Origin: an uncultured Kordia sp.
GTDB taxonomy: Bacteria > Bacteroidota > Bacteroidia > Flavobacteriales > Flavobacteriaceae
Assembly: GCF_947489565.1 (NCBI RefSeq)
Contig: NZ_CANLEA010000003.1
Span: 62,001 to 126,000 of the forward strand
DNA: 64,000 bases
Direction: 5' to 3'
Part shown: piece by piece, positions 540-29,272 of the stretch
How the letters are laid out: each line of letters starts with the position of its first letter
How positions within the stretch are numbered: the first letter of the stretch is position 1
Notes under the pieces: model-generated
What the model was told of the DNA's origin: nothing
Database searches by the model: none
What the model saw: the letters and a program-made list of their open reading frames with translations, nothing else
Program-made: the position numbers and the translations under genes

Positions 540-1136
540 TTATTTCCCCATAAAATCACGCAAGGTATCATAAAACGCTTCCTGTGTTGGACGTTCTTTG
601 GGAACTTCACGTAACGGCTCGACTTCGCGTAAAGTTTCATGACAATCGGCTGGTAATTGTTGATATAATTGTGTGCCTTTGGTTTTCCAAGCTATCATTT
701 CATCACTAACTTGTTTAATGACTTTTGCAGGATTTCCAACTACCAAACTACGTTTAGGAATGACAGTTTTTGCTTTGACAAACGCCATCGCACCAATGAT
801 ACTTTCATCACCAATTTCGGCATCGTCCATAATTACAGTGTTCATTCCAACCAACACATTTCGACCAATATTGGCACCGTGAATGATAGCACCGTGACCA
901 ATATGTGCACTTTCTTTCAATACAATCGATTTTCCTGGAAACATATGCACGGTACAATTTTCTTGTACGTTTACGCCATCTTCCAAGATAATTTCTCCCC
1001 AATCGCCACGAATAGCTGCTCCAGGTCCTATATAACAATCTTTCCCAATAATTACATTTCCTGTTACGGCTGCTAATGGATGTACAAAACTACTTTCGTG
1101 TACAACGGGAATGTATCCTTTAAATTCGTAGATCAT
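540..1136 (-). CDS. paaY: PaaY-type hexapeptide-repeat (gamma-carbonic-anhydrase-like) protein
   Basis: A 198-residue left-handed beta-helix protein built from imperfect [LIV]-G-x4 hexapeptides over about residues 10-145. It matches PaaY closely: the GDWGEI and VHMFPGKS regions, metal-type histidines in HIGHGAIIHG, VGMNTVIMD, and the C-terminal EPLREV signature. PaaY is a thioesterase that relieves CoA trapping by dead-end products of phenylacetate breakdown, so this gene belongs functionally with the paa cluster 11 kb away. An in-frame ATG two codons upstream (1142) exists. The start at 1136 is preferred because known PaaY proteins begin at the equivalent of MIYEFKGYIPVV. A GAAA-loop hairpin ends six bases before this ATG, as at three other paa-type genes here. 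Confidence 0.85.
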   Translation of the reverse strand: MIYEFKGYIPVVHESSFVHPLAAVTGNVIIGKDCYIGPGAAIRGDWGEIILEDGVNVQENCTVHMFPGKSIVLKESAHIGHGAIIHGANIGRNVLVGMNTVIMDDAEIGDESIIGAMAFVKAKTVIPKRSLVVGNPAKVIKQVSDEMIAWKTKGTQLYQQLPADCHETLREVEPLREVPKERPTQEAFYDTLRDFMGK

Positions 1137-1142
1137 ATTCAT

Positions 1143-1160
1143 TTCCCGTGAAAGCGGGAA
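1143..1160 (-). promoter_or_regulatory. Start-site hairpin upstream of paaY
   Basis: The + strand reads TTCCCGT-GAAA-GCGGGAA, a 7-bp stem with one G-T pair and a 4-base loop. In the transcript it is followed by ATGAAT and the paaY ATG. The same arrangement precedes the enoyl-CoA hydratase, paaC and paaB in this window. It may be a translational control hairpin or a REP-like repeat that lands next to start codons. Confidence 0.5.
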
Positions 1161-1353
1161 CCTTTTTTGTTTGTAATCTCAACAAAGATACTGCATTTTC
1201 GATTTACGAGCGAGCGTCTGTTTTTTGAAACCTTTCTGCAAAATTCCAAAATAACATTTCATGCGTTAAAATGTTAAATTTCTACAAATCACGCAGGTTT
1301 CTGTAAGTTTTCATGTAAAAAATGCTACTACATTCCTATAAAACTGAAAAGCT

Positions 1354-1644
1354 ATGAATCACACAACACCTTCGTGCATTATCCAAAAAGAAGATATTCC
1401 AACATTAAAATTTTCTAAAACAGAAATCTTACAAAGTCCAAGAAAAAGAAGTTTACGATCGTACTATTTAGATCGTGCTACAAAATTAGGAAACTTGTTA
1501 AAGAATAAAGTCACTATTTATTTTAAAGATCATACCGATCAATTAATGCAAGTAAACACAACTATTTGGGCTGTTACCACTGATTTTGTGGTTTTAAAAC
1601 AAGGCATTACCATTCCGAAGAGAAGTATTTTATATATTGATTAG
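1354..1644 (+). CDS. Conserved small flavobacterial protein, unknown function
   Basis: 96 residues, no signal peptide, basic. From memory, similar proteins with the pattern RATKLGNLLKNKV...TTIWAVT..FVVLKQGITIPKRSI occur widely in Flavobacteriia as uncharacterised proteins. The second half alternates hydrophobic and polar residues as in a small beta-barrel or Sm/PilZ-like fold, which is only an impression. It stands alone between divergent paaY and a repeat-filled spacer, 210 bp downstream of the paaY start. Confidence 0.6.
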   Translation: MNHTTPSCIIQKEDIPTLKFSKTEILQSPRKRSLRSYYLDRATKLGNLLKNKVTIYFKDHTDQLMQVNTTIWAVTTDFVVLKQGITIPKRSILYID

Positions 1645-1685
1645 TAAGCGAGTTTTCACATCTGAAGCTTGCTATAATTTCTAAG

Positions 1686-1741
1686 TTGTTCTCGATACAA
1701 TTTTCTCCATTTTATTCCGAAAATCACTCGAACTGACGTTT
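1686..1741. repeat. Dispersed repeat B, single arm
   Basis: Begins with GTTCTCGATACAATTTT and ends with CACTCGAACTGACGTT. The same words form both arms of the large inverted repeat at 11624-11750, so this is one arm of that element. It lies in the 235-bp spacer between the 96-residue gene and the end of the TonB-receptor gene, just before repeat A. Confidence 0.6.
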
Positions 1742-1750
1742 AGCACCTTA

Positions 1751-1862
1751 ATACGTCATTACGAGGAAACATGACGAAGTAATCTGCCGATCGCATATAA
1801 GAGTTTGTATTTGAAACAAACAGATTGCCACGAATTTCCTCTAAATTCTCGCAATGACGTTT
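1751..1862. repeat. Dispersed inverted repeat A, copy 1
   Basis: The ends are ATACGTCATTACGAGG and TCTCGCAATGACGT, which are complementary. Internal words (ATGACGAAGTAATCTG, CAGATTGCCACGAATTTC) recur in copies at 5799-5886 and 11769-11885. This copy is in the opposite orientation to the other two. With copy 2 it brackets the sigma/FecR/TonB-receptor operon. Confidence 0.7.
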
Positions 1863-1879
1863 TAAAGAAGTTTCAACAC

Positions 1880-4237
1880 CTAAAAATTCACGCGAAACAC
1901 CATATTCAACGTTGTTCCCAAACCGATATCTGTTTGTTCTACCAATTGTTGCGTAGTATCGCCTTCAACTCTGTACAATTTATCAATCTCATTTTCTCTG
2001 TTGTATAGATTGATTACTGACACGCCAAATCGCGCTTTGATGTTTTTTTCTTTCTGTAGATAGAAATCATACAGCACACTTGCATCCAATCGATGATACG
2101 CTGGCAATCGCTTGTTATTTTGATCTTCATAAATGATTTCAACATCTGTATTGCCTTCATCATCTGTAAATTCTATAATGTCAGCAGCCTGTGTAAATGG
2201 TTTTCCCGTAGTATATTGCCATCCAAAAGCAAACTCGAAATTCTTGTAATTAAAGGTATTTGACAATGATAAAACATGTCGTTGGTCAAAGTTTCCAAAG
2301 AAAGTTCCTGCTTGTAAGTTTGGAAATCGGAAGTCGTTTTGACTTAGTGAATAGCCCAACCAAAAACTCGTTTTTTTAATTCTCTTTTTTACCAATACAT
2401 CGACTCCGTACACAGTGCTATTTCCAGAAATATAATCTTCTGCAATTTGATTTGCCGTGCGAAAACCTCGTGTAAAAGAAGTAAGTCCTTTAATGCGTTT
2501 GTAATACCCTTCTACATCTAACTTCCAACCATTTTTTGCGAATTCAAATCCTGTGGTTATTTGTCGATTGGACAATATTGGAACATCTTCTTTGTCTGCC
2601 AAGGCCCAAATTTCATTGCTTAATCCTAATTCGTTAAATTCAAATGTCAACAACTGACTTATGGCTTGATTCCGTAATTCTGCGGAAGCTTTCACTTTCC
2701 AATAATCATCAAATGCATACTCGCCATACAAACGCGGTTCTAGATAAATATCTTGAAAGTCCGAAAAATAATTTCCGCGCAATCCAACTCTCAAAAACCA
2801 ATGCGCATCCGCATATTTATATTCTGTAAATGCGCTGTGTACGGTTTGTTCACTGCGTACAATTTCATTTCCTGTAAAATCTTGTCCAGCTTCTATAATA
2901 TCATAATTGACTTTATAGTCTGAAAACTCATATCCTACAGTAAATGTATGTGCTTTTTTGGGACGATAACTCACTTGTGCAATTCCTCCAAAATCATTGA
3001 TGATATTTTCTTTGCGATATGATTCGTTATCGACTCCTGCAACAAAATCACGGAAGGTATTTTCCAATTCATATTTTGAATACTGAACTTTTAGGTCTGT
3101 TTCCCATGAATCACCATATTTTCCATTCCATTGAAAACTCAAGCCATTATTTTGAAGTTTTAATGCATCTGCTGAACCTTCTCGTTCCACATTTTCACTT
3201 GCGTGATTTAGACTGTTGTTGATCAATAATGTACTGACGCTAAGTTTATGGTCTTCATGCGGTTGATAAAGTATTTTTCCAAAGAAATCTGTGAAGTAAA
3301 ATTTATTTTCAAGAATGTTCAATTCTTCTTCGACGCGAATGTTATTAATTTCTTCGATTTTGGTATGTTGAAATACACGATCACTGAGCGAATTGAAAGT
3401 AAACGAATCCCAAACATCGGTCAGCGATCTTCTTCCCGAGACAATAATTCCCAATGTATCTTTTATGATCGGAACTTTCACAAAAGCATCTGCATTAATG
3501 GTTGTTGTTCCAATACCACCCGAAAATTCATCTGGAACTTTTCCAAACGATTGCATGTCAATAATTCCAGCTACACGCGAACCATATTTGGTACTTGCGC
3601 CACTTTTAAATACATCAACACGTTCGGTAATGTGTGGATTGAACGGCGAAATCATTCCAAAAAAATGTCCACCGTGATACATGGTAATTCCATCAAACAA
3701 TACCAAATTCTGATCGGGCGTTCCTCCGCGAATGTGCAATGCTGAAGCTGATTCCGTTGGACTCGAAATGCCTGGAATACGCTGTAAACTTTGTAAAATA
3801 TCTGGTTCGGTTAATCCTGCCAAAATATTCAGCTTATTCGGTTGTAGCGTAATGGCTTTGTTTATTTTATTTTGATCAAATCCTGAAGTCACATATTCGG
3901 AAACAATCACCACTTCATCCAAACTATATTGACGAATAGCATCTTTTGCAACCGCAGCAGCTTCCGTAATTACAAAATTCTCCGCATCAATTTCAGTGAT
4001 TTCTACTTGCTGTTTTGCTTCTATAACGGAGAGCATTTCTGACAATGTTGCCATTCCATTATAGGAAATAAAAATTCCTTGAAGCGTAGCTGTATTGTAT
4101 GAAAAACGCACTTGAAAACGCTGTTCCAAATCGCGAATTACGTCTGAAAGTGGTTTTTCTTGATATCGTATATTTTGTTCTTGTGCATTCGCTAGGAATA
4201 CAAACAGGCAAAAACAATACGCTAAAAGTTTTTTCAT
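1880..4237 (-). CDS. TonB-dependent outer-membrane receptor with STN domain
   Basis: 785 residues. A signal peptide (about 1-18, ending FLANAQ) is followed by a secretin/TonB N-terminal (STN) signalling domain at about 25-90 (DVIRDLEQRFQVRFSYNT), a plug domain from about 125 (LQRIPGISS, LHIRGGTPDQNLVLFDGI) and a 22-strand-type barrel ending in Phe (MVFRVNF). The STN domain normally contacts a FecR-type anti-sigma factor, and the FecR gene overlaps this start by 1 bp, so this is a substrate-sensing transducer with the two upstream genes. No SusD partner is adjacent, which argues for an iron chelate or small ligand rather than a polysaccharide. The ligand is not deducible. Confidence 0.88.
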   Translation of the reverse strand: MKKLLAYCFCLFVFLANAQEQNIRYQEKPLSDVIRDLEQRFQVRFSYNTATLQGIFISYNGMATLSEMLSVIEAKQQVEITEIDAENFVITEAAAVAKDAIRQYSLDEVVIVSEYVTSGFDQNKINKAITLQPNKLNILAGLTEPDILQSLQRIPGISSPTESASALHIRGGTPDQNLVLFDGITMYHGGHFFGMISPFNPHITERVDVFKSGASTKYGSRVAGIIDMQSFGKVPDEFSGGIGTTTINADAFVKVPIIKDTLGIIVSGRRSLTDVWDSFTFNSLSDRVFQHTKIEEINNIRVEEELNILENKFYFTDFFGKILYQPHEDHKLSVSTLLINNSLNHASENVEREGSADALKLQNNGLSFQWNGKYGDSWETDLKVQYSKYELENTFRDFVAGVDNESYRKENIINDFGGIAQVSYRPKKAHTFTVGYEFSDYKVNYDIIEAGQDFTGNEIVRSEQTVHSAFTEYKYADAHWFLRVGLRGNYFSDFQDIYLEPRLYGEYAFDDYWKVKASAELRNQAISQLLTFEFNELGLSNEIWALADKEDVPILSNRQITTGFEFAKNGWKLDVEGYYKRIKGLTSFTRGFRTANQIAEDYISGNSTVYGVDVLVKKRIKKTSFWLGYSLSQNDFRFPNLQAGTFFGNFDQRHVLSLSNTFNYKNFEFAFGWQYTTGKPFTQAADIIEFTDDEGNTDVEIIYEDQNNKRLPAYHRLDASVLYDFYLQKEKNIKARFGVSVINLYNRENEIDKLYRVEGDTTQQLVEQTDIGLGTTLNMVFRVNF

Positions 4238-5172
4238 TAATGTGAACGAATTTCTACTGTTTTTCCTTCAGTAATAGTGTACGGAATTCCCATCGCAACA
4301 AATACTGTTCTTGCAGCTGATATAAGATTGTCATGTTTGAATCTTCCAGAAAAATAGATCTCTTTTAAATGCTCTTTCCCTGTGATTGTTATTCCATATT
4401 GACGCTCCATTTCCGCCACTACTTCTTTGATATTGACTTTATAAAAAGAACTTTCATTCAACAACCATTGTGGTTTTTCTTCATAAATATCATACTTTTC
4501 TAAGTTGCCTTTCTGCAATGAAATAGATTTTCCTTTGGTCAAAATAATAGTGTCACTATTTTTTAATTGCACTTTTACTTTCCCTTCATAACATTGTACA
4601 ATATAAGTATCAACTCTCGAATTTACAGAAAATTGTGTTCCCAAAACCGTGACATCTCCTTGATTGGAAGTTACGGTAAACGTCTCTCCTTTTTTGACTT
4701 TAAAGAATGCTTCTCCTTCTAAATTAAGCTTTCGATTGCTTTCCCAATTGAACGCTGTAAATGTTACTTTAGAATCAGCATTGAGTTGTACTTCTGAATC
4801 ATCTGGCAATTTAAATTCCGTTTGTTGTGCTACTTCCGTAGTGTAAATCGTTTCCTGAAACATAAACGTATAGCCCACAAAAAGTAGTACGCAAGCTGCA
4901 GCTGCGGCAAATATCCATCTTGGAACGAGTCGCTTTGCTTTTGTTGGTGTTTCTTCAATAATTTCCGCTTTGGATTCGTTTTGAATCTTTACTTGGAAAG
5001 CAGCATAATTTGCTTCCACATCAGGTTCAGAAAAAGAAGCCGTATCTAGCGTATCTAAAATCTTTGCATAATCAGCATAGTCTTCAGATTTCTGAAATTC
5101 TGCAAGTTCTGACTTGGTGAGTTCACCTGCCATCCAACGTGCTAAAAAGTTATCATCATAGTTCTGTTGCAT
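4237..5172 (-). CDS. FecR-family anti-sigma factor
   Basis: 311 residues. A short cytoplasmic N-terminus (FLARWMAGELTKSELAEF) resembles the sigma-binding region. One transmembrane segment lies at about 86-105 (RWIFAAAAACVLLFVGYTF). A periplasmic FecR domain follows (TEFKLPDDSEVQLNADSKVTF...LNLEGEAFFKVKKGETFTV), then a C-terminal DUF4974-like domain. It should hold the ECF sigma factor encoded 57 bp upstream and release it when the cognate TonB receptor binds ligand. Its stop overlaps the receptor start by one base, so the two are translationally coupled. Confidence 0.88.
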   Translation of the reverse strand: MQQNYDDNFLARWMAGELTKSELAEFQKSEDYADYAKILDTLDTASFSEPDVEANYAAFQVKIQNESKAEIIEETPTKAKRLVPRWIFAAAAACVLLFVGYTFMFQETIYTTEVAQQTEFKLPDDSEVQLNADSKVTFTAFNWESNRKLNLEGEAFFKVKKGETFTVTSNQGDVTVLGTQFSVNSRVDTYIVQCYEGKVKVQLKNSDTIILTKGKSISLQKGNLEKYDIYEEKPQWLLNESSFYKVNIKEVVAEMERQYGITITGKEHLKEIYFSGRFKHDNLISAARTVFVAMGIPYTITEGKTVEIRSH

Positions 5173-5228
5173 ATGCTATTTATTTTGGATTATATACGTA
5201 TAACCGCTTTGTCGAAAAAAAACCTATG

Positions 5229-5747
5229 TTAGAGTTTATAATTTTTTATACTACTTCGTAATTGTATCAATGCGCGTTGCATCCTTGTTTCCACTGATTT
5301 GACTGAAATTCCTAGCATTTCCGCGATTTCTTTATACTTCTTTTTTTCGATTCTGTTGAGTAAAAAAACTTCGCGCTGTTTTTCAGAAAGTGCATTAATG
5401 GCAGCTGTTAATTGCTGTTGAAATTCCTTTTCTCGCAATACAAAATCGGGATCTTCAATTTCCACATTGCGCTGTTTAACTTGTTTGTATTTCAGCACTA
5501 CTTTTTGATGTTCGTAAATATTGAAATACGCATTCTTTACAATGGTAAATAAATAGGAAACTGCTTTTTCGGGAGACACTTTTGCACAATTCTTCCAGAG
5601 TTTCACAAAAGCATCCTGCGTTAAATCGTCTGCCTGCGCTTCATCTTTACATTTGATATAAATGAAATTTCGAACCGTTGCGAATTGCTTCGTAAACACA
5701 TTTTTAAAAATCTGTTCGTCACAAACGTTTGTAAAGAGTTCTGGCAT
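5229..5747 (-). CDS. ECF-type RNA polymerase sigma-70 factor
   Basis: 172 residues with sigma region 2 at about 20-85 (DDLTQDAFVKLWKN, SYLFTIVKNAYFNIYEHQK) and region 4 at about 115-165 (ALSEKQREVFLLNRIEKKKYKEIAEMLGISVKSVETRMQRAL). This is the FecI-like group common in Bacteroidota. It is the first gene of a three-gene operon with FecR and the TonB receptor. It likely directs transcription of the receptor gene or an unlinked uptake locus when FecR releases it. Confidence 0.88.
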   Translation of the reverse strand: MPELFTNVCDEQIFKNVFTKQFATVRNFIYIKCKDEAQADDLTQDAFVKLWKNCAKVSPEKAVSYLFTIVKNAYFNIYEHQKVVLKYKQVKQRNVEIEDPDFVLREKEFQQQLTAAINALSEKQREVFLLNRIEKKKYKEIAEMLGISVKSVETRMQRALIQLRSSIKNYKL

Positions 5748-5798
5748 TGATGTTTTTTCTGGATTTATGTTGTAAATATAGGATTTTTATAAAAATAG

Positions 5799-5886
5799 AT
5801 ACGTCATTGCGAAAGTTATGAAAAAACTTGTGGCAATCTGTTTCTTTAGTCACAGATTACTTCGTCATGCTTCCTCGTAATGACGT
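5799..5886. repeat. Dispersed inverted repeat A, copy 2
   Basis: Begins ATACGTCATTGCGAAAG and ends CTTCCTCGTAATGACGTTT. It shares GTGGCAATCTGTTT and ACTTCGTCATGCTTCCTCG with copy 3. It fills most of the spacer between the divergent sigma factor and transglutaminase genes. Confidence 0.7.
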
Positions 5887-5913
5887 TTCACATGATTTAT
5901 ATTTTTTTCAAAA

Positions 5914-5948
5914 CCAAACATAGGGTAAATTTCACAGTTCCTGTTTGT
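5914..5948 (+). promoter_or_regulatory. Upstream box shared with the 10-kb locus, site 1
   Basis: Contains CCAAACATAGGGTAAA followed by TTCCTGTT, with AGGGTA (5922) and CCTGTT (5940) separated by exactly 12 bases. The site at 9977-10011 has the same words and spacing. AGGGTA lies 53 bp before the transglutaminase ATG. It is probably a regulator site or an extended promoter. Confidence 0.5.
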
Positions 5949-5974
5949 CTCGTAAATCCAATAATACAATCGTT

Positions 5975-7549: not shown

Positions 7550-7561
7550 TATGAGATTCAG

Positions 7562-8647: not shown

Positions 8648-8667
8648 TCTTGATAATATTAAACATA

Positions 8668-11938: not shown

Positions 11939-12691
11939 CTATGCAAATCGCTTCAAGGTTTCTTTTGTAAAGTCAGAAAGGACTAGTCTTCCTGAGATTG
12001 CTGCACGTTCCGCTAATAAGTTATCCCAATCTTCCGTTCCTGCCCAAAATGCTTTTTTCATTTCTGCCATCGCTTCCGGATTGTACGTGCATAAATGGTT
12101 TGCAAACGCAGTAACTGCTTCGTCCAATTCTTCGTTTGAATCATAAACTTTCATATATAAACCTTTGCTTCTCGCCCATTCTGCATCGTAGAAACTGTTT
12201 GCATCAATGGCAATTTGTGACATTCCGCTTAAACCTAGTTTACGTTCTACGGCTGGTCCAACTACAAATGGTCCGATTCCAACATTGAGTTCGCTTAGTT
12301 TGATAGAAGCAAATTTTGATGCCATGCAATAGTCTACCGCAGAAGCCAATCCAACGCCGCCACCAACAGTTTTTCCTTGTACACGTCCGATGATGAATTT
12401 TGGACATTTACGCATTGCGTTGATCACGTTTGCAAATCCTGAAAAGAAGATTCTTCCTGTTTCTGCATCGTTGATGTTTATTAATTCTTTAAAGCTTGCT
12501 CCTGCACAAAAAGTTCTATCCCTTCCACTTTTTAGAACAATAACTTTGATGTTGTCATTCGTTCCTGCATCGGTAATCGTTTGTGCTAATTTGGCTAATA
12601 TATCTCCTGGCAACGAGTTGTGTGCCGGATGAAAAAATTCGATGGTTGCTACACCGTTTTGTATGTCTTGTTTTACGTATGGATCGCTCAT
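11939..12691 (-). CDS. Enoyl-CoA hydratase/isomerase family protein of the paa cluster
   Basis: 250 residues with the crotonase fold: the CoA-binding FCAGASFKEL loop and the oxyanion-hole region GKTVGGGVGLASAVDY. The second catalytic acid (Glu164 of rat enoyl-CoA hydratase) is present as LSELNVG. The first (Glu144) is replaced by Gly in GGGVGL, so it is a one-glutamate crotonase. By position behind paaZ it likely does the PaaF step, hydrating 2,3-dehydroadipyl-CoA. The start at 12691 is preferred over 12697 because the same hairpin-ATGAAT-ATG pattern gives the PaaY start. It is transcribed away from a GIY-YIG gene 97 bp upstream. Confidence 0.82.
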   Translation of the reverse strand: MSDPYVKQDIQNGVATIEFFHPAHNSLPGDILAKLAQTITDAGTNDNIKVIVLKSGRDRTFCAGASFKELININDAETGRIFFSGFANVINAMRKCPKFIIGRVQGKTVGGGVGLASAVDYCMASKFASIKLSELNVGIGPFVVGPAVERKLGLSGMSQIAIDANSFYDAEWARSKGLYMKVYDSNEELDEAVTAFANHLCTYNPEAMAEMKKAFWAGTEDWDNLLAERAAISGRLVLSDFTKETLKRFA

Positions 12692-12697
12692 ATTCAT

Positions 12698-12715
12698 TTC
12701 CCACGAAAGTGGGAA
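12698..12715 (-). promoter_or_regulatory. Start-site hairpin upstream of the enoyl-CoA hydratase
   Basis: TTCCCAC-GAAA-GTGGGAA on the + strand, a perfect 7-bp stem with a GAAA loop (TTTC in the transcript). It is followed by ATGAAT and then the ATG. The stem bases differ from those upstream of paaY and paaC, but pairing is kept. Confidence 0.55.
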
Positions 12716-13085: not shown

Positions 13086-13269
13086 TTTTTGATTTACTTT
13101 TTTTAGTTTTTCACTTTCGTGAGAATGTTTCTATTAATATTACTTTTTTGAGTAAATAACTTTTTGTTGCTATTTTTTAAGACTCCCGATTTCTCGGACA
13201 TATTCTTTTAACTCCTACTTTTCTTAAATATAAAGACTCCCGATTTCTCGGGAGCTTTGAATAATTCGA

Positions 13270-22259: not shown

Positions 22260-22373
22260 TTGCTTGGGTCTTGTTTTTTGTCGATTTGTTTGTTTGTTGA
22301 TTTGTTTTGCTTACTCAGACACTTTTTTGTCACGAATTCACGAATGTTTTTATTTTATCGCTTACACTCTTGC

Positions 22374-22403
22374 TTGGGTCTTGGGTCTTGGGTCTTGGGT
22401 CTT
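22374..22403. repeat. Short tandem repeat (TTGGGTC)x4
   Basis: Four exact heptamers plus two bases. It lies in the 439-bp gap between the glycosyltransferase and paaJ stops, next to a diverged copy of the 124-bp unit (22263-22345). Confidence 0.9.
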
Positions 22404-22420
22404 AAGAAATATATTTTTTA

Positions 22421-22699
22421 TTTAAAATTCAATTATTAATTACGAATTGTGCTTTAAAACTTCTCAATACTCAATACTAATATCTCAGTACTTTTCTCGC
22501 GTTAGCGCTGGAGCAATTGTTGGAGCTCTTTTGAAAAGTGGATTCCTGCCTATACTGAATCAAGTTCAGCATAAACTACGGAAATGACAGTTTTCAAAAA
22601 GCGACTTGCGACATAGCGACCGCAAAAGCACATTTCGACTCCGTTCAATGTAAACACTAAACGGTAAAATGTGCTTTTGTGGAAACGCCTTAATTATTT
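22421..22699. repeat. Right copy of flanking repeat (with repeat C)
   Basis: Same order of words and same orientation as 16388-16602: TTTAAAATTCAATTATTAAT, CTTCTCAATACT, AATACTAATATCT, GCGTTAGCGCTGGAG, TTGGAGCTC, ending TGTGGAAACGCC and AATTATTT at the stop of paaJ. It is longer than the left copy because of inserted hairpins (GTGGATTCCTGCC...; GCACATTT...AAATGTGC). Confidence 0.7.
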
Positions 22700-23910
22700 T
22701 ATGAGTTCACATTTTCAATGATAGCTGCATAGCCTTGTCCGACACCAATACACATCGTGATTAATGCATAACGCTTGCCAGTTTCCTGCAATTGTAATGC
22801 CGCAGAATACGCAATACGCGCTCCTGTAACTCCAAGTGGATGACCAATTGCAATGGCGCCTCCATTTGGATTGATTCTAGCATCATCATCAGCCAATCCC
22901 CATTCGCGAATGCAAGCTAAACTTTGTGCTGCAAAGGCTTCGTTGAGTTCGATTACGTCCATATCATCCATGGTTAATCCTGCTTTTTGCAATGCTTTGT
23001 TGGAAGCATTTACTGGACCAATTCCCATGATGCGTGGTTCTACTCCCACAACTGCCGAACTTACAATTCGTGCCATTGGTTTTAGATTGTATTTTTTAAC
23101 TGCAGCTTCAGAAGCTACAATTGTTGCAGCCGCACCATCGTTTAATCCAGATGCATTTCCTGCAGTCACACTTCCGCCTTCTTTTTTGAAAGCTGCTCTT
23201 AGTTTTGCTAAGATTTCTGGTGTTGTCGTTGGTTTTATGAATTCATCTTGATTGAAGATGATTGGATCTTTTTTACGTTGCGGAATTTCAACCGCTACAA
23301 TTTCTTTGGCTAAGCGTCCAGATGCTTGTGCTGCTGTTGCTTTCATTTGACTTCTATACGCAAAGGCATCTTGATCTTCACGAGAGATATTGTACTTTTC
23401 TACTAGATTTTCGGCAGTAACTCCCATTCCGTCCGTACCATATGCAGCGTGCATTTTTGGATTGATGAATCGCCACCCGAAACTAGTATCATACATTTTT
23501 GCATCGGTTCCAAAAGCACTTGATGGTTTTGCAATTGCGTATGGTCCGCGTGTCATGTTTTCCACTCCACCAGCTACAAATAAATCTCCATCGCCCGCTT
23601 TGATGGCACGATTGGCATGAATGATGGCTGATAACCCAGAACTACAAAGTCTGTTTACCGTTTCGCCAGGAACCGTATATGGCAATCCTGCTAGTAGCGA
23701 TGACATACGCGCCACATTACGATTGTCTTCTCCTGCTTGATTGGCACAACCGATAATTACATCGTCATATGCATCTTTTGGAATGTTTGGATTGCGATCG
23801 GTTACTTCTTTGATAACTATAGCTCCTAAATCATCAACACGTGTGGTTGCCAATGATCCTTTGAATTTTCCTATGGGAGTTCTAACTCCGTCTATGATGT
23901 ATGCTTCCAT
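22699..23910 (-). CDS. paaJ: 3-oxoadipyl-CoA / 3-oxo-5,6-dehydrosuberyl-CoA thiolase
   Basis: 403 residues, normal thiolase length. Nucleophile Cys89 (VNRLCSSGLSAI), the conserved NEAFAAQ, the His loop GGAIAIGHPLGVTGAR, and the C-terminal acid/base Cys in MCIGVGQGYA. The usual CIGGGQG has Val in place of one Gly. PaaJ (pcaF-type) releases acetyl-CoA at the last step and works twice in the phenylacetate path. It lies downstream of paaI on the same strand, with AT-rich AAATGTAAAATG-type repeats in the 170-bp spacer. Confidence 0.9.
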   Translation of the reverse strand: MEAYIIDGVRTPIGKFKGSLATTRVDDLGAIVIKEVTDRNPNIPKDAYDDVIIGCANQAGEDNRNVARMSSLLAGLPYTVPGETVNRLCSSGLSAIIHANRAIKAGDGDLFVAGGVENMTRGPYAIAKPSSAFGTDAKMYDTSFGWRFINPKMHAAYGTDGMGVTAENLVEKYNISREDQDAFAYRSQMKATAAQASGRLAKEIVAVEIPQRKKDPIIFNQDEFIKPTTTPEILAKLRAAFKKEGGSVTAGNASGLNDGAAATIVASEAAVKKYNLKPMARIVSSAVVGVEPRIMGIGPVNASNKALQKAGLTMDDMDVIELNEAFAAQSLACIREWGLADDDARINPNGGAIAIGHPLGVTGARIAYSAALQLQETGKRYALITMCIGVGQGYAAIIENVNS

Positions 23911-24040
23911 GCTTGAAATGCTAAATTTTAAATGCTAAATCTTAAATATAAAAGTGGTTGGTAATGCTTCAATTTAAAACTTTTGCTGTTTGTTTAATGT
24001 AAAATGTAAAACTCTAAATGTAAAATTTTAAAGTGTTTGT
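23911..24040. repeat. AT-rich word repeats between paa genes
   Basis: Repeated AAATGCTAAAT, TAAAATGTAAAAC and AATGTAAAATTTTAAA. Similar stretches lie at 26553-26640, 27430-27533 and 30319-30365, always in spacers between paa genes. They are too degenerate to assign an element. Confidence 0.45.
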
Positions 24041-24080
24041 TTTGATTATCAAACTGTATTTAGTGTTTTATCTTTGATGT

Positions 24081-24443
24081 TTATTTTTTGTTTGATGTTT
24101 TTATACTTGTTGTAAAGATAGCTACTAATTCACTACACTCTTTTTGATTTTGTTTGAACTTATTTTCGTCCTGAATTAAGTTTGCTTCTACCATAATCTC
24201 CATGTTGACTTGAGATTCTCTTAATTCTTTTAAGCAGATTTTCATTTTATGTATGAAATCTCTTTTTGATTCAGCTGATTGTGCTTCACCATAGTTTAAA
24301 GCTGCAGATGTAGACGAACGAATCAATTGTTTTATTAAATGCTCGGATGCATATTCTTTTTTCAAAGCAGAAGAATTGACGATAACATTTGCTGAAAATT
24401 TCACCAAACGTTTTTGTAAGTCGTATTGTTTCTTTTTTTCCAC
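24081..24443 (-). CDS. Four-helix bundle protein (23S rRNA intervening-sequence type), copy 1
   Basis: 120 residues, all helical, matching the family first seen encoded in 23S rRNA intervening sequences (LIKQLIRSSTSAALNYGEAQSAESKRDFIHKMKICLKELRES). Members are also found as bAvd-like accessory proteins of diversity-generating retroelements, but no reverse transcriptase or variable repeat is seen here. In Bacteroidota they are often scattered between unrelated genes. This copy lies between paaI and paaJ and interrupts the gene order without breaking either gene. Confidence 0.85.
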   Translation of the reverse strand: MEKKKQYDLQKRLVKFSANVIVNSSALKKEYASEHLIKQLIRSSTSAALNYGEAQSAESKRDFIHKMKICLKELRESQVNMEIMVEANLIQDENKFKQNQKECSELVAIFTTSIKTSNKK

Positions 24444-24484
24444 TTTAGAATTTTTAATTTAAAATTTTACATTTAGCATTTATT

Positions 24485-24898
24485 TTATTCTTCCCAATCT
24501 TTTTGCGTTCGATATACAACACCTTTGAAGAGCGCAATGAGTTCATCACCACGTTTGACTTCTATGATGTTGAAACCAAGTTTGTTTTTTACTTTTTCTA
24601 TGACAGATTCGGCTACAATGAAGTCACCTTCCTCTAATGCTTCAATATGATTGATAGAAGTTTCTATAGAAACCGCATATTTTCCATGTGTATTTGCAGC
24701 AAAACCAAAAGCGGTATCTGCTAAGGAATAACTGATTCCGCCATGTGCTTTCCCCATACTGTTGAGCATATCTCTTTTGACCGTTAACCCAACTTTACAT
24801 CTTCCTATTTCACATTCTAGAATCTCAATTCCGAGCCATGTACTGAATGGATCGAGGCTTAACATTTTATGTGGTATGTCTTTTCCTTTTATCGGCAT
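24485..24898 (-). CDS. paaI: PaaI-type hot-dog thioesterase
   Basis: 137 residues in one hot-dog domain. The signature GKAHGGISYSLADTAFGFAANTHG carries the catalytic Asp/Gly region of PaaI. DPFSTWLGIEI and CKVGLTVKRDMLNSMG agree with the family. PaaI hydrolyses ring-hydroxylated phenylacetyl-CoA to free CoA. The spacer toward the next gene upstream (24899-24960) is built from GGGATTAG and GGCATTAG words. Confidence 0.88.
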   Translation of the reverse strand: MPIKGKDIPHKMLSLDPFSTWLGIEILECEIGRCKVGLTVKRDMLNSMGKAHGGISYSLADTAFGFAANTHGKYAVSIETSINHIEALEEGDFIVAESVIEKVKNKLGFNIIEVKRGDELIALFKGVVYRTQKDWEE

Positions 24899-24960
24899 TA
24901 GTTGTTTGGGATTAGGGATTAGCGTTTTCTTTCTTTTTTAAAGGCATTAGGTAATTGGCA

Positions 24961-25350
24961 TTAGGGATTAGTTTTTTTCCTTTCCAATATTCTTTTTCTC
25001 AAAGATGACATCATTTTTGTCAACTCTGAGATTAACTTCCTATTTTCTTCATCATCTTCAAAATTAATATAGTTTCTTCTTCTCGCTTTCGTACTACAAC
25101 TTACACATTCGTTTGCACTGTAAATGGCATGATTTAAATGCTTCACAAATTGAGCATCTGAACCAGGATATCCTTCTGCAATATTTAATGCTATGGAATC
25201 AGCTGCTCTTCTAAATTGGGATGATAAAGCATACAGTTCGTGATTAGGAAACTTTTTTACTATTAAATTAACTAATTCACCAAAATCCATTGCTTTTTGA
25301 TAGACTCTTAAATCTTCAAATTTAAAATTGTATTTACTTACTTGACTCAT
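24961..25350 (-). CDS. Four-helix bundle protein (23S rRNA intervening-sequence type), copy 2
   Basis: 129 residues: FEDLRVYQKAMDFGELVNLIVKKFP, then the AADSIALNIAEGYPGSDAQFVKHLNHAIYSANE core typical of the family. It is clearly diverged from copy 1, so not a recent duplication. It sits between paaH and paaI; the two copies flank paaI. GGATTAG/CTAATCC words occur on both sides (24905-24970 and 25351-25373). Confidence 0.85.
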   Translation of the reverse strand: MSQVSKYNFKFEDLRVYQKAMDFGELVNLIVKKFPNHELYALSSQFRRAADSIALNIAEGYPGSDAQFVKHLNHAIYSANECVSCSTKARRRNYINFEDDEENRKLISELTKMMSSLRKRILERKKTNP

Positions 25351-25373
25351 ACCTAATTCCTAATACCAAATCC

Positions 25374-26552
25374 CTAGTCAAAAAAGGTTTTCCCTTGTCT
25401 GTTTAGTTTTCGTAATAATGGCGAACAACGATAACGATCTTCATGGTATTCGTCGTATAAACTGTCTAAGGTTTTCACACACCAATCGATTCCTTTTTCA
25501 TCTGCCCAAGCGAGTAATCCTTTTGGATAATTCACTCCTTTTGTCATTGCATTGTCAATGTCTTCCGCGGAAGCAATATTTAAGAATAGTGCGTCTGCTG
25601 CTTCGTTGATGAGCATGACTAATACACGATCGAATATTTGATTGGCCAATTCTTCATCATACGTCGTCTCGACTGCGCTCGATGTGACACGTTTTCCGTT
25701 TTCATCATAGTCGTAATATCCTTTTCCAGTTTTTCTACCTAGATATCCCGCTTCTGATAAACGCTTTTGCGTGAACGATGGTTTGTATCTTGAATCGAAA
25801 TAGAACGCCGTAAATACGGTTTCTGTTACCGTATAATTTACATCATTTCCAATGAAATCCATCAATTCAAAAGGTCCCATACGGAATTTACCAATTGTTT
25901 TTAGCGCATTGTCAATGGTAGCAAAATCTGCCAAACCTTCTTCATAAATTCGTAATGATTCTCCATAGAAAGGTCGCGCTACTCTATTTACGATAAAACC
26001 TGGTGTATCTTTTGCTACTGCTACCACCTTTTTCCAATCGGCAATGGCTTGCGTTGCTTTATCTAATACTTCTTGTGAGGTTTGAATGGCAGGAATGACC
26101 TCAACTAATTTCATCAATGGTGCTGGATTGAAAAAGTGAATTCCGATACAACGTTCTGGTTTTTGTAATGATGAAGCAATAGAAGCTATGGATAATGACG
26201 ACGTATTTGATGCAATGATTGCTGTATCACTCACATACGTTTCTAATTCGGAAAATACTTTTTGTTTGATGTCTAGATTTTCAATGATTGCTTCAATCGT
26301 TAAATCAGAATCTCCTAAATCTTTAAGTGTATCTACATAGGAAATGTTTCCTTGAATTCTCGATTTTTCAGCTTCATCGATACGTCCTTTTTGAATGAGA
26401 CGATTTAATATTTTTTCTAAAGCAGCTTTACTTTTGTCTAAAGCAGCTTGTTTTGTATCGTATAGTTTCACCATGCATCCTGCGGTTGCTGCAACTTGCG
26501 CAATTCCGCTTCCCATAGTGCCTGAACCTATTATTCCTACGTTTTTAATCAT
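25374..26552 (-). CDS. paaH: 3-hydroxyacyl-CoA dehydrogenase
   Basis: 392 residues. The NAD-binding motif is GIIGSGTMGSGIAQVAATAG at the N-terminus. The catalytic His lies in CIGIHFFNPAPLMKLVEVIP, and the C-terminal domain has KFRMGPFELMDFIGNDVN. It is shorter than E. coli PaaH (about 475) but has both C-terminal helical parts (GYLGRKTGKGYYDYDENGK). It oxidises 3-hydroxyadipyl-CoA to 3-oxoadipyl-CoA. It lies 91 bp downstream of paaG. Confidence 0.9.
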   Translation of the reverse strand: MIKNVGIIGSGTMGSGIAQVAATAGCMVKLYDTKQAALDKSKAALEKILNRLIQKGRIDEAEKSRIQGNISYVDTLKDLGDSDLTIEAIIENLDIKQKVFSELETYVSDTAIIASNTSSLSIASIASSLQKPERCIGIHFFNPAPLMKLVEVIPAIQTSQEVLDKATQAIADWKKVVAVAKDTPGFIVNRVARPFYGESLRIYEEGLADFATIDNALKTIGKFRMGPFELMDFIGNDVNYTVTETVFTAFYFDSRYKPSFTQKRLSEAGYLGRKTGKGYYDYDENGKRVTSSAVETTYDEELANQIFDRVLVMLINEAADALFLNIASAEDIDNAMTKGVNYPKGLLAWADEKGIDWCVKTLDSLYDEYHEDRYRCSPLLRKLNRQGKTFFD

Positions 26553-26643
26553 AAATTATAAATGTTAAATTATAAATGTTAAATGTCTGTCTATTCACCT
26601 TTTACATTTAATATTTAAACTTTTAGATTTTTCGGTTTGGTAC

Positions 26644-27429
26644 TTATTTTCCTTTAAAATTTGGTTTTCTTTTTTCAACAAATGAAGCAACACCTTCGCG
26701 ATAGTCATCAGATTCACTCGCTTCTATTTGATGTTTTGATTCTAGTGCTAATTGTGATTCTAAGTCGTTTGAAAGTGATTGATTTAATACTTTTTTGGTT
26801 AAACCAAGTGCTTTTGTTGGCATCTTCGCTAGTTTTTCAGCTAACGCGACTACATCTTCTTTGAATGTTTCTAGCGGTAATACTTTGTATAACATTCCCA
26901 ATCGTTCTGCTTCTTCTGCTCCAACTTTATCTCCTAACATCATGAGTGCAGAAGCTTTTTGAAATCCGATTAATCGTGGTAAGAAGAATGTTCCTGCGCT
27001 GTCTGGAATTAATCCGATTTTGCTAAACGCCTGGATGAAACTTACTTTTTCATGTGCTACTACAATATCACACGCCAAAGCAATGTTTGCTCCAGCTCCT
27101 GCTGCTACACCATTGACAGCTCCAATTATTGGTTTTTCTATGGCACGAATTCGCTGAATGATTGGATTGTAATGTTCTTCTAGTATTTTTTTGAATCCAG
27201 GATTGAGTTCTGGATGTGTAACTTCTTTTAAGTCTTGTCCTGCACAAAATGCTTTTCCTTCTCCAGATAATACAATCGCGCGTACTTCGTCATTTTGTTC
27301 ACATTGATCTAGTGTATCTTGTAAACGCAATGCCATTTCGCGATTGAAACTATTGAATACTTCAGGACGATTGAGCGTTATATACGCTACATTGTTTTCA
27401 ATTTTTAATTCAATTGAATTATTACTCAT
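26644..27429 (-). CDS. paaG: PaaG: ring-1,2-epoxyphenylacetyl-CoA isomerase (oxepin-forming)
   Basis: 261 residues from the ATG at 27429; the frame extends 10 codons upstream without homology. Crotonase fold with FCAGQDLKEV and GAVNGVAAGAGANIALACD. Both hydratase glutamates are missing (Asn in GANI, Phe in QAFSKIG) and the isomerase Asp is present in GLIPDSAGTFFLPRL, which is the PaaG pattern. It converts the PaaABCE epoxide to 2-oxepin-2(3H)-ylideneacetyl-CoA. It is distinct from the hydratase at 12 kb. Confidence 0.88.
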   Translation of the reverse strand: MSNNSIELKIENNVAYITLNRPEVFNSFNREMALRLQDTLDQCEQNDEVRAIVLSGEGKAFCAGQDLKEVTHPELNPGFKKILEEHYNPIIQRIRAIEKPIIGAVNGVAAGAGANIALACDIVVAHEKVSFIQAFSKIGLIPDSAGTFFLPRLIGFQKASALMMLGDKVGAEEAERLGMLYKVLPLETFKEDVVALAEKLAKMPTKALGLTKKVLNQSLSNDLESQLALESKHQIEASESDDYREGVASFVEKRKPNFKGK

Positions 27430-27533
27430 ACCTTTATAATGTAAAATGCAAAATATCAAAGTTTAAATGTAAAATGTTAATCGTATTAAATATCATTTTT
27501 ACATCTAGCATTTAAAATTTTGCTGTTTATAAT

Positions 27534-28034
27534 TTATTTCAAGCATTTAAAGTAATCAAATGGCTCTAAACAGTCTTCACATTTGAATAATGCTTTGCAG
27601 GCTGTTGAACCAAATTGACTGACTAGTTTTGTATTTGTCGAATTGCAGTTCGTACATTTTACGATGCGCTTATCACCAAGCAATGCATCTTTGTCTGCAT
27701 CTGGATTTAGTGGCGGTGCAATTCCGTATTCTCGCAATGCATTTCGTCCGCGTTCGGTAATCCAATCTGTTGTCCAAGCTGGTACTAATACTAATTTTAC
27801 TTTTGATTCGTAATTATGCTCCTTGAGCGCTTTGGAAATATCATCTCCAATGACATCCATTGCAGGACAACCTGAGTATGTTGGTGTAATACTTACTTCT
27901 ACAATTCCGTTAATCAATCTTGCAGAACGTACAACACCCATGTCCATTATGGAAAGTACTGGAATTTCTGGATCCGATACTTTTTCCAAGATTGGAATAA
28001 GAACTTCGTCTATGTGTTGATTGGTCGCGATCAT
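27534..28034 (-). CDS. paaD: PaaD: MIP18/DUF59-type assembly factor of the phenylacetyl-CoA epoxidase
   Basis: 166 residues. The N-terminal DUF59 domain (VSDPEIPVLSIMDMGVVRSARL; TPTYSGCPAMDVI) is followed by a C-terminal zinc-ribbon-like Cys set (KCTNCNST...CKALFKCEDC...FKC). PaaD helps mature the iron centres of the epoxidase, probably the PaaE iron-sulfur cluster. It is encoded 63 bp after paaC, as expected for paaABCD order. Confidence 0.9.
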   Translation of the reverse strand: MIATNQHIDEVLIPILEKVSDPEIPVLSIMDMGVVRSARLINGIVEVSITPTYSGCPAMDVIGDDISKALKEHNYESKVKLVLVPAWTTDWITERGRNALREYGIAPPLNPDADKDALLGDKRIVKCTNCNSTNTKLVSQFGSTACKALFKCEDCLEPFDYFKCLK

Positions 28035-28097
28035 TTTATTTGGATGATACTTTGTGTGTTATTTGCATCTCAACTCCGCTTGATGTGACAAATTATG

Positions 28098-28850
28098 TTA
28101 CCAATTCATGTTTGGATAGGCTCTTTGCATGTATTGCATGTCTGCTAATAAGTAGCCCATATGTTCTGTGTGAATTCCTGCTTTTCCTCCTTTTTGGAAG
28201 TATTTGCTTTCTGGAACTGTTAACGTAGCTTCTTGTAATAATGAAGTTACATTTTGATAGTATGTTTCTTTTAATTTAGAAACATCTACTCCTATTCCTT
28301 GTTCAGCTAGGGCTTTTGCTTCTTCGGTTACTTCGAACAATTCGTTTGTGTATGTCCAAAGTCCATCAATAGCTGCTTGCATTTTTTCATGACTTTCTTC
28401 GGTTCCATCACCTAAGCGCTTAACCCAATCACCTGAGAAACGCACATGATAGGAAACTTCTTTGATCGATTTTTTTGCAATTGCACTTAAGGTCATATCT
28501 TGACTAAACTGTAATTTTTCCAGTAATAATAAGTGAAACACATCGAATAGATATTGTCTTGCTATAGTATATGCAAAATCACGATTTGGCTGCTCTACTA
28601 ATAATACATTTTTATATTCACGTTCGTAACGTAAGAAAGCAATACTGTCTTCTGTTGCATCACCACCTTTGATATCTGCTGCATACTGAAAGTAACTACG
28701 TGTTTGTCCAAATAGATCTAAGGAAATATTTGTACAAGCAATGTCTGTTTCTAGACTTGGTCCGTGTCCACATAATTCTCCTAAACGCTGTCCTCCTATT
28801 AAACAGTTATCGGCTAGTTCGAGTATGTAGTTGTATAAGTTTGTTTTCAT
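28098..28850 (-). CDS. paaC: PaaC: structural subunit of the phenylacetyl-CoA 1,2-epoxidase
   Basis: 250 residues, all-helical ferritin-like. Family marks: LADNCLIGGQRLGELCGHGPSLETDIACTNISLDLFGQ, EQPNRDFAYTIARQYLFDVF, and KEVSYHVRFSGDWVKRLGDGTEESHEKM. PaaC pairs with PaaA and lost most metal ligands in evolution. Its start follows a GAAA-loop hairpin plus ATAAAT. The 112-bp spacer to paaB holds further inverted words (ACACTTCGACTTCGCTCAGTGT; TTCCCAATTTCTTGGGAA). Confidence 0.92.
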   Translation of the reverse strand: MKTNLYNYILELADNCLIGGQRLGELCGHGPSLETDIACTNISLDLFGQTRSYFQYAADIKGGDATEDSIAFLRYEREYKNVLLVEQPNRDFAYTIARQYLFDVFHLLLLEKLQFSQDMTLSAIAKKSIKEVSYHVRFSGDWVKRLGDGTEESHEKMQAAIDGLWTYTNELFEVTEEAKALAEQGIGVDVSKLKETYYQNVTSLLQEATLTVPESKYFQKGGKAGIHTEHMGYLLADMQYMQRAYPNMNW

Positions 28851-28856
28851 ATTTAT

Positions 28857-28874
28857 TTCCCGTGAAAACGGGAA
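28857..28874 (-). promoter_or_regulatory. Start-site hairpin upstream of paaC
   Basis: TTCCCGT-GAAA-ACGGGAA on the + strand, a perfect 7-bp stem. In the transcript ATAAAT and then the paaC ATG follow at once. Same layout as at paaY and the enoyl-CoA hydratase. Confidence 0.55.
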
Positions 28875-28962
28875 TCTTTTTGTTGTTAAACTTCATAGTA
28901 CACTTCGACTTCGCTCAGTGTACGGATTTAGATTCCCAATTTCTTGGGAATGACACTGCGTG

Positions 28963-29247
28963 TCACATATGCTTAATCTCGTCTGGTAACGTATAAAAAG
29001 TTGGATGACGATATATTTTGTCCTGTGCTGGTTCAAATAGTTCGCCATTGTTTTCAGGATTTGAAGCTGTAATGTTTTTTGATTCTACAACCCAAATACT
29101 TACACCTTCACTTCTGCGCGTGTACACATCTCTTGCATTTTCTAATGCCATTTCTGCATCAGCTGCATGTAAGCTTCCAAAATGTCTGTGTTCTAATCCG
29201 TTTTTACTTCTCACGAATATTTCCCAAAGAGGCCAATTTTTTTCCAT
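28963..29247 (-). CDS. paaB: PaaB: small subunit of the phenylacetyl-CoA 1,2-epoxidase
   Basis: 94 residues, the usual PaaB size. PLWEIFVRSKNGLEHRHFGSLHAADAEMALENARDVYTRR and EGVSIWVVESKNITAS are family hallmarks. PaaB bridges PaaAC dimers into the active complex. The start follows a hairpin and ATAAAT. It is 108 bp downstream of paaA. Confidence 0.92.
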   Translation of the reverse strand: MEKNWPLWEIFVRSKNGLEHRHFGSLHAADAEMALENARDVYTRRSEGVSIWVVESKNITASNPENNGELFEPAQDKIYRHPTFYTLPDEIKHM

Positions 29248-29252
29248 ATTTA

Positions 29253-29272
29253 TTGCCCACGAAAGTGGGTAA
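29253..29272 (-). promoter_or_regulatory. Start-site hairpin upstream of paaB
   Basis: TTGCCCAC-GAAA-GTGGGTAA on the + strand, an 8-bp stem with one G-T pair. The transcript continues ATAAAT then ATG. Fourth member of the set; here stem bases changed on both sides. Confidence 0.5.

Follow-up and report, generated by a model that had tools for sequence, protein, structure and literature searches.

The window, as we call the whole 64,000-nucleotide stretch of DNA analyzed, contains the phenylacetate-degradation genes paaY, paaC, and paaB and a paa-linked gene for an enoyl-CoA hydratase/isomerase (ECH). The first-pass annotation placed a hairpin directly before the start codon of each, and all four lie where it located them, on the minus (coding) strand. 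The features are:

1137..1142, minus strand: paaY spacer ATGAAT; ATG at 1134-1136, coding sequence 540-1136
1143..1160, minus strand: paaY start-adjacent hairpin, TTCCCG-CTTTCA-CGGGAA, with C.A next to the loop
1161..1172, minus strand: A-rich stretch upstream of the paaY hairpin
12692..12697, minus strand: ECH spacer ATGAAT; coding sequence 11939-12691 (ECH_1, PF00378)
12698..12715, minus strand: ECH start-adjacent hairpin, TTCCCAC-TTTC-GTGGGAA
12716..12727, minus strand: A/T-rich stretch CCATTAATAAGA upstream of the ECH hairpin
28851..28856, minus strand: paaC spacer ATAAAT; coding sequence 28098-28850 (TIGR02158)
28857..28874, minus strand: paaC start-adjacent hairpin, TTCCCGT-TTTC-ACGGGAA
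28875..28886, minus strand: A-rich stretch upstream of the paaC hairpin
28932..28951, plus strand: REP-like hairpin ATTCCCAA-TTTC-TTGGGAAT, then GAC, in the paaB-paaC gap, in opposite orientation and not start-adjacent
29248..29252, minus strand: paaB spacer TAAAT; coding sequence 28963-29247 (TIGR02157)
29253..29272, minus strand: paaB start-adjacent hairpin, variant class TTACCCAC-TTTC-GTGGGCAA

The stems had been described as 7–8 bp, which is accurate for ECH and paaC, both perfect 7 bp stems closed by a TTTC loop, but not for the shorter or imperfect stems of paaY (6 bp with the C.A apposition beside the loop) and paaB (5 bp, CCCAC/GTGGG, followed by an A.C apposition and two T-A pairs). 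The spacers are 5–6 bases long, as described; counted from the final G of GGG, the ATG lies 8 nt away in all four cases. The in-frame ATG inside ATGAAT is the start in the ORF list; the second ATG agrees with homologues. The best NCBIfam match of the paaY coding sequence is PaaY (TIGR02287), at 244.7 bits, under the cut-off of 319.6. The paaC hairpin fold has a z score of −3.14, with none of 200 shuffles as stable. In 65-nt folds, neither paaY (z −0.71) nor paaB (z −0.35) exceeds its shuffles in stability, which counts against the split-region reading developed below.

Across the 6.4-Mb home genome, the strict motif stands only before paaY, ECH, paaC, and paaB. A strict test (five pairs, G.U allowed, 6–10 nt before the ATG of a frame of at least 60 aa) returned paaB, paaC, ECH, and one in-gene match at 29721, and no other; it skips paaY owing to the C.A apposition, so similarly imperfect copies elsewhere could escape it. 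The core CCCNNTTTCNNGGG occurs nine times in 6.42 Mb, six of them in the window (reversed control, one), and GGGNAATRAATATG five times, four of them in the window (reversed control, none). Hairpin copies in the home genome exceed chance. An enrichment P of 1.9e-9 for the strict test was set aside, as it relied on assumed gene numbers. Two other patterns were discarded: CCCNNNTTTCNNNGGG, which misstated the stem, gave four matches and ATTCCNNNNTTNNNNNGGAATG two, all unrelated. A genome-wide REP in the home genome is ruled out by the total of nine core hairpins in 6.4 Mb.

The proposal that the hairpin serves a single pathway did not survive a wider search. Of 299 family genomes, 15 carry the strict motif, at 36 places in all, and with other spacers the motif stands before obgE, rimO, trpS, hisS, ruvB, and more; these genes rule out a paa-only regulon. 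Copies at 7–8 nt stand before some 70 gene families, by a crude grouping in which at least one family is a likely chance match. The C2 gene is presumably an SDR, judging from its sequence. A few genes have a second small stem before the ATG (L317, L339, and L206 with a TAAA loop; L295 with another loop).

Within the home genus (11 species), paaY, ECH, paaC, and paaB account for 24 of 47 places. As anticipated, close relatives keep the hairpin at paa genes: paaC in 11/11 species, although the upstream DNA varies in several, paaB in 6/11, ECH in 6/9, and paaY in 5/9 of those examined. The remainder (5/11 for paaB, 3/9 for ECH, and 4/9 for paaY) lack it, indicating frequent gain and loss. In the family-wide set, counting the home genome, any hairpin was scored at 5/30 paaB and 4/30 paaC loci. 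Other genera have it at paaB (L291, L189, and L175, and with longer spacers L171 and L174), and ECH orthologues elsewhere have it at L284, L091, and L317. At rimO, four of seven congeners have clearly paired hairpins with differing stems; clear pairing is lost in the other three, which, like the gaps at the paa loci, counts against the split-region reading. One rimO leader (L330) contains TATCTTTG, which we take to be a Bacteroidetes −7 promoter-like motif, 60–67 nt before the ATG.

A preference for start codons, on which the first-pass annotation made its case depend, is borne out in 1.6 Mb of stretches sampled from three genomes. Considering starts 3–40 nt downstream, 15 of 22 pyrimidine-loop hairpins have an ORF start at 7–9 nt, against 0/3 on the purine-loop strand; at 7 or 8 nt, the numbers are 11 and 0, respectively. 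Mirror repeats give no peak. Two of the genomes (G157 and G168) were chosen as holders of several motif copies and the signal comes mostly from G168; the home-genome and G157 samples on their own yield little or no peak.

Stem bases vary yet stay paired, as had been noted from the four copies. Both free inner pairs are Watson-Crick in 56/85 start-adjacent copies, whereas 5000 shuffles gave a mean of 22 and a maximum of 34. Non-start copies are paired too (18/23), and this counts against the split-region reading. Single mispairs at stem positions 2–4, positions picked after the table had been seen, comprise 12 G.U and 2 A.C at starts versus 23 and 38 elsewhere (p = 0.002). Because G.U rather than A.C mispairs occur there, wobble appears to be tolerated in the mRNA sense at start-adjacent stems. 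Over five stem positions, the comparison is not significant (17:10 versus 42:51, p = 0.13). The loop-closing pair includes five C.A and five C.T cases, and the loop is TTTC in 62/70 one-per-family copies.

Compensatory changes were sought in an alignment of all 11 paaC leaders (eight distinct). Covariation is present, but it reflects mainly two module states, and neither the two two-sided pair changes nor the further pair types exceed shuffles, of which 336 and 492 of 500, respectively, reached equal values. Left out of a second alignment were, for rimO, two of the seven leaders (L334 and L336, which lack a clear stem) and, for paaC, two leaders with indels (L352 and L353) and another three that match L160 exactly.

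The 55 one-per-family genes with 8-nt spacing give the consensus WAAAAAGATTCCC-RY-TTTC-RY-GGGAA-RTRAAY-ATG, where the four positions ahead of CC had been filtered. It includes an A box upstream of the hairpin, which in-silico removal of the hairpin places at −12/−13. With the hairpin removed from 61 one-per-family genes, and no flank filter, A reaches 0.87/0.85 at −13/−12; general genes (n = 1084) have 0.48/0.51 at these positions, a peak of 0.56 at −11, and a baseline of ∼0.38. The flank is 76% A at starts (n = 108) versus 41% next to hairpins that lack an ORF start within 35 nt (n = 81; Fisher 2.7e-22, with orthologues not independent), and the contrast persists with one copy per family versus 15 controls (3.7e-6). 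At 7-nt spacers, the A box remains fixed to the stem, which counts against a split region. In Flavobacterium johnsoniae, A-3, A-12, and A-13 favor initiation, with −6 named alongside (PMC6847099).

These positions suggest how the hairpin might be read. Shine-Dalgarno pairing is little used in these bacteria, the ribosome preferring A near −12/−13 plus a Kozak-like A at −3. In hairpin genes, the 18-base stem-loop parts the A box (AAAAAGA) from the final six bases (RTRAAY), and folding would loop the stem out and bring the A box to its normal distance from the AUG. The module of A box, hairpin, and spacer would form a repeat family with a stem and loop akin to CGTC REPs, and in the course of flavobacterial evolution start codons would have acquired, lost, and exchanged its members. 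At the level of sequence, position and strand, pairing, the register of the A box, and both retention and turnover are established. We put at about even the chance that the hairpin is an mRNA element within a split translation initiation region carried by a repeat. We infer that the hairpin, once folded, fits into the ribosome and that initiation stays on through its folding; the hairpin might act as a switch or be a silent insert that the ribosome tolerates.

Hairpins similarly lie between an upstream ribosome-binding element and the AUG in T4 genes 25 and 38 and E. coli thrS. The T4 hairpins shorten the effective spacing from 27 to 11 nt and from 22 to 5 nt, respectively (PMC3014915), and thrS has a split ribosome binding site (PMC3936740). 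In T4 the upstream element is a Shine-Dalgarno sequence, whereas the consensus here has the AAAAAGA box, in SD-poor bacteria; each T4 case is a single gene, whereas the repeat precedes ∼70 gene families. The T4 accounts demonstrate an effect on translation; for the flavobacterial hairpins, whose removal in silico restores the spacing of the upstream element (A box at −12/−13), such an effect is predicted from sequence. TAACTGA direct repeats of Beggiatoaceae and some Bacteroidetes also lie directly upstream of many unrelated starts, with a suspected translational role, but are tandem heptamers with no predicted structure (PMC4679880). Kozak-like initiation in F. johnsoniae shares the A at −3, −12, and −13, but the passages of that study cited here describe low structure near starts and no hairpin-split leaders (PMC6847099). 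Rfam, at gathering score over 12 sources, gave two matches (SAM in L044 and Flavo-1 in L028), neither over a hairpin. No earlier description of the start-adjacent hairpin was found in the literature searched, in which subscription journals were thinly covered. What appears to be new is the A-rich initiation box upstream of the hairpin, in register once the hairpin is removed in silico.

The best-surviving alternative, possible though on balance doubtful, is selfish REP-like DNA that prefers start contexts, its hairpin having no mRNA role; A box and spacer would then either be what is left on both sides of an older leader that was divided, or move along with the element. Stem and loop agree with the GATTCCC..GGGAATGAC repeats, and CGTC REPs, including neisserial dRS3, share the short palindrome, a 4-base loop (family 1), and A-T outer pairs (PMC3733652). 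The first-pass suggestion of a REP-like repeat thus holds for stem and loop, and for the copy at 28932-28951, but start-adjacent copies differ in flank, spacing, and strand. CGTC REPs end in CGTC, most also have a CCA tail, and they are found chiefly downstream of genes (PMC3733652). Start-adjacent copies have AGATT, lack the CGTC tag (GACG on the other strand), run on as RTRAAY-ATG, and stand 7–8 nt from starts; nor do they appear to be mainly downstream of genes, judged from the 7–9 nt peak before ATG in the sampled stretches. The GGGAATGAC end occurs in 0/20 copies of named Flavobacteriaceae records, whereas 55 of 61 copies in named records outside Bacteroidota have it, Neisseria and Nitrospirota included, and loci of these two groups share an exact 20-mer with the hairpins described here. 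Selfish spread would fit the patchy presence, the two module classes at one paaC site, the near-empty sites in the genus (paaY, L398 versus L357), and the 11 of 20 named Flavobacteriaceae copies not scored before an ATG start; mutation bias, moreover, can keep inverted repeats perfect. Against it are the single strand at starts, the G.U rather than A.C mispairs there, and the paaC hairpin's presence throughout the genus. A Y1 transposase, expected of a RAYT-mobilized REP, does not clearly follow the motif: it is present in 10/15 motif-bearing versus 6/15 other genomes, with none found in motif-rich G168.

Clearly less probable is a true regulatory switch, in which a putative factor, be it a protein, a helicase, or temperature, would lower or raise translation through the UUUC-loop hairpin. 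The near-constant loop and the clustering on paa within the home genus favor it, as does the hairpin's position in a part of the mRNA that usually has little structure. Low structure from −20 to +20 is the tendency in F. johnsoniae mRNAs (PMC6847099), so the hairpin might lower initiation, which counts against the split-region reading. As for the switch, REP-like non-start copies have the same loop, which may thus be inherited, and the gene set is mixed. An antisense intrinsic terminator, for which the other strand at paaC and paaY reads a GAAA-loop stem and then TCTTTTT or CCTTTTTT, is highly improbable, since many copies have ATGAGATT or ACGAGATT in front and so no U run, and it leaves the ATG spacing unexplained.

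The split-region reading extends to a more speculative proposal, which we think unlikely in full: that Flavobacteriaceae have a mobile, SD-independent start module, a repeat made of A box, loop-out hairpin, and AUG spacer that places itself right at start codons; that initiation depends on its folding (folded being on); and that exchange of modules tunes operons, paa among them. For the choice of start codons by ribosomes of SD-poor Bacteroidetes, a hairpin that recurs and always divides the leader at one point, the A box staying in register across it, is a natural experiment on reading by the 30S subunit. Such a hairpin would connect REP-type repeats with the starts of translation instead of the ends of genes.

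The first-pass annotation had placed hairpins on the minus strand immediately 5' of paaY, the paa-linked enoyl-CoA hydratase/isomerase gene (ECH), paaC and paaB, and all four coordinates are confirmed. Its stems of 7–8 bp hold at ECH and paaC (7 bp) but are shorter or imperfect at paaY and paaB. At each gene, 8 bases separate the final G of GGG from the ATG. These hairpins and other features of the paa region are as follows.

1143–1160, minus strand: paaY hairpin, 6-bp stem with a C·A apposition at the loop
12698–12715, minus strand: ECH hairpin, 7-bp stem, loop TTTC
13237–13254: hairpin CTCCCGAGAAATCGGGAG with TCTTTATATTT directly 3' of the paaZ stop, perhaps the paaZ terminator
24961–25350: four-helix-bundle (TIGR02436) gene between the paaH-like and paaI-like genes
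28857–28874, minus strand: paaC hairpin, 7-bp stem, loop TTTC
28898–28923: inverted repeat GTACACTTCGACTTCGCTCAGTGTAC, paaB–paaC gap
28932–28951: REP-like hairpin ATTCCC..GGGAATGAC, paaB–paaC gap
29253–29272, minus strand: paaB hairpin, 5-bp stem with an A·C apposition
32699–34453: 584-aa frame adjoining the paa cluster, with a biopterin-dependent aromatic amino acid hydroxylase domain (PF00351)

Relatives carry different repeats in their paa gaps, for example GTCATCCTGAACTTGTTTCAGGATCTC, TCAATTTCAATTTC or CAATCAGCAATC. As described initially, the remaining paa genes appear to lack the hairpin: a strict scan of the window adds no gene, but because paaY is among the genes that it overlooks, imperfect copies may go unnoticed.

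Of the nine occurrences of the core CCCNNTTTCNNGGG across the 6.42-Mb genome, six fall inside the window. GGGNAATRAATATG occurs five times: at the four paa genes and, with loop TTGC, at C2:354340, 5' of an SDR-like gene that we take to encode an SDR oxidoreductase. These low counts rule out the rival view of a REP-like repeat (repetitive extragenic palindrome), insofar as it implies dispersal in the organism's own genome.

The hairpin is also present in close relatives. Each of the 11 home-genus species has paaC, with a hairpin ending 7–8 bases before the ATG (11/11); it recurs at paaB in 6/11 and, where the start was in hand, at ECH in 6/9 and paaY in 5/9. The paaC hairpin of G313 is imperfect, its outer stem altered on both sides (TTCTC..GAGAA), and G179, G310, G307 and G311 carry TACCC..GGGCA or TATCC..GGGCA in place of TTCCC..GGGAA; the strict motif CCCNNTTTCNNGGGNAATRAATATG is absent from G179. 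The variant class TACC..GGCA, with its A·C apposition, recurs at 29253–29272 of the window and at L025, L088, L220, L304, L311, L171 and L174, and is swapped with TTCC..GGAA at one paaC site within the genus. A search tolerating up to two mismatches yields 47 places across these 11 genomes, and none for the reversed pattern: 24 lie at paaB, paaC, ECH or paaY by gene identity or position, three lack an ATG, and others precede the SDR-like gene (five species), trpC (three) or a carbamoyltransferase-like gene (L378). Two further places, both in G307 (L356, L366), are followed by related ORFs of 36 codons, MNETRLQFLKGFITGFLTA... and MNKEKLLFLKGFITGFLTA..., possibly small proteins.

Restriction to one pathway, as first proposed, does not survive the family-wide comparison: the pattern is paa-centred in the organism's own genome, but across the family many non-paa genes carry it. 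The strict motif CCCNNTTTCNNGGGNAATRAATATG occurs at 36 places in 15/299 family genomes, and its reversed pattern at none among the matches listed. Among listed matches with other spacers, judged in part by the letters beside them, many more copies precede an ATG. NCBIfam named nine of a first set of ten proteins behind hairpins (thymidylate synthase, metF, trpS, rimO, obgE, hisS, 3-oxoadipyl-CoA thiolase, ruvB and tpiA; one unnamed). A second set of nine comprised trpD, trpC, argC, serC, cmk, the 16S rRNA (cytidine(1402)-2'-O)-methyltransferase, an N-acetylornithine carbamoyltransferase matched below cut-off, a dihydrolipoyl acyltransferase without a match above its cut-off and one protein without a match. 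Over all loci, 99 copies combine a spacing of 7 or 8 bases with a TTT or CTT loop, and a crude N-terminal comparison sorts them into 70 gene families, many of the regions having been chosen for being start-adjacent; 19 families have more than one member in a wider set of 91. At least one family, that of L118, lies outside the group and is probably a chance match. Across the family Flavobacteriaceae, paa genes rarely carry the hairpin: in 30 loci, ours among them, hairpins of whatever sequence within 14 nt of the start were scored at 5/30 paaB, 4/30 paaC, 1/20 paaA and 1/28 paaD.

Sampled stretches show a start preference. Both strands of 1.6 Mb from G157, G168 and the home genome were scanned for perfect CC+3 hairpins whose loop has 4 bases (79 pyrimidine-loop and 79 purine-loop views); starts, here and throughout, are called by homology or longest ORF. 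Where the sense strand held the pyrimidine loop, 22 starts lay 3–40 bases downstream, 15 of them at 7–9, versus three and none with a purine loop; narrowed to distances of 7 or 8 bases, the figures are 11 (G168, 8; G157, 3; home genome, 0) versus 0. Mirror-repeat controls gave no distance peak.

The observation that stem bases differ yet stay paired is borne out. Of 85 start-adjacent copies chosen on CCC, TTTC and GGG alone, 56 form Watson-Crick pairs at both free inner positions, against a mean of 22 and a maximum of 34 in 5000 shuffles of the right arms. The 23 copies that are not start-adjacent pair similarly (18, against a mean of 3.2 and a maximum of 9 in shuffles), and pairing by itself therefore sets no boundary between the two groups. 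At paaC (11 species, 8 distinct sequences), 87.3% of cells pair versus 40–51% for slid structures. The covariation score there lies above all 500 shuffles, a signal explained by two pair states; neither pairs changed on both sides (2) nor the number of pair types are in excess over shuffles. In an alignment of 14 selected rows, taken from paaC, rimO and the window genes, 89.8% of cells pair. As an indicator of the strand involved, single mispairs at stem positions 2–4, picked after the fact, are 12 G·U and 2 A·C at starts versus 23 and 38 elsewhere, a set that includes other phyla (p = 0.002); over all five positions they are 17:10 versus 42:51 (p = 0.13), both values being optimistic because the sequences share ancestry. 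In another genus, rimO of seven congeners (94–100% identical) has four clearly paired hairpins (CCCGC/GTGGG, CCCGG/TCGGG, CCCGT/ATGGG, TCCAC/GTGGG), one weakened (CCCTT/TTGGG) and none in two, and among seven ECH starts the hairpin differs between species (e.g., CCCAC/GTGGG versus CCCTT/AAGGG).

The REP view retains one part, the palindrome itself. By our own reading of the tag, GGGAATGAC matches the CGTC REP form described in an excerpt of PMC3733652. A GTDB scan with one exact 20-base form found at least 136 copies at at least 120 loci, 80 with names, grouped by record title. Among the named matches listed, 0/61 copies outside Bacteroidota lie 7–9 nt before an ATG and 55/61 read GGGAATGAC; in other Bacteroidota 2/11 are start-adjacent and 8/11 read it; in Flavobacteriaceae 9/20 are start-adjacent and 0/20 read it. 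CGTC REPs, by contrast, lie mainly downstream of genes, according to the same excerpt. Y1 transposases, the enzymes of RAYT-mobilized REPs, do not clearly track the motif: they are present in 10/15 motif-bearing and 6/15 other genomes, and none was found in motif-rich G168. In our view, the start module branched off from the CGTC REP palindrome within flavobacteria.

In 61 copies with 8-base spacing, one for each gene family, A reaches 0.85–0.95 at three positions of the flank upstream of the stem; taking out the 18-base hairpin would shift these to −13, −12 and −9. In G157, G168 and the home genome, general genes (n = 1084) peak in A at −11 to −13, in a profile that is noisy because it uses longest-ORF starts. 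Where no ORF start lies within 35 bases, the hairpin has AGA beside the stem but less of the A box behind it. Some copies (L317, L339, L206, L295) have a second small stem (e.g., CGC-TAAA-GCG) abutting the ATG, as if the spacer had turned stem. In F. johnsoniae, A-3, A-12 and A-13 favor initiation (excerpt of PMC6847099). A looped-out hairpin in a split initiation region has been demonstrated for T4 genes 25 and 38 (excerpt of PMC3014915), and E. coli thrS has a split region in its own form (excerpt of PMC3936740); we liken the flavobacterial leader to both. Linear spacing puts the A box ∼30 bases from the AUG, where ordinary genes have baseline A only. Going by base composition, we propose that the initiation region of these leaders is split and that the hairpin would loop out and place the A box at −13/−12 relative to the AUG.
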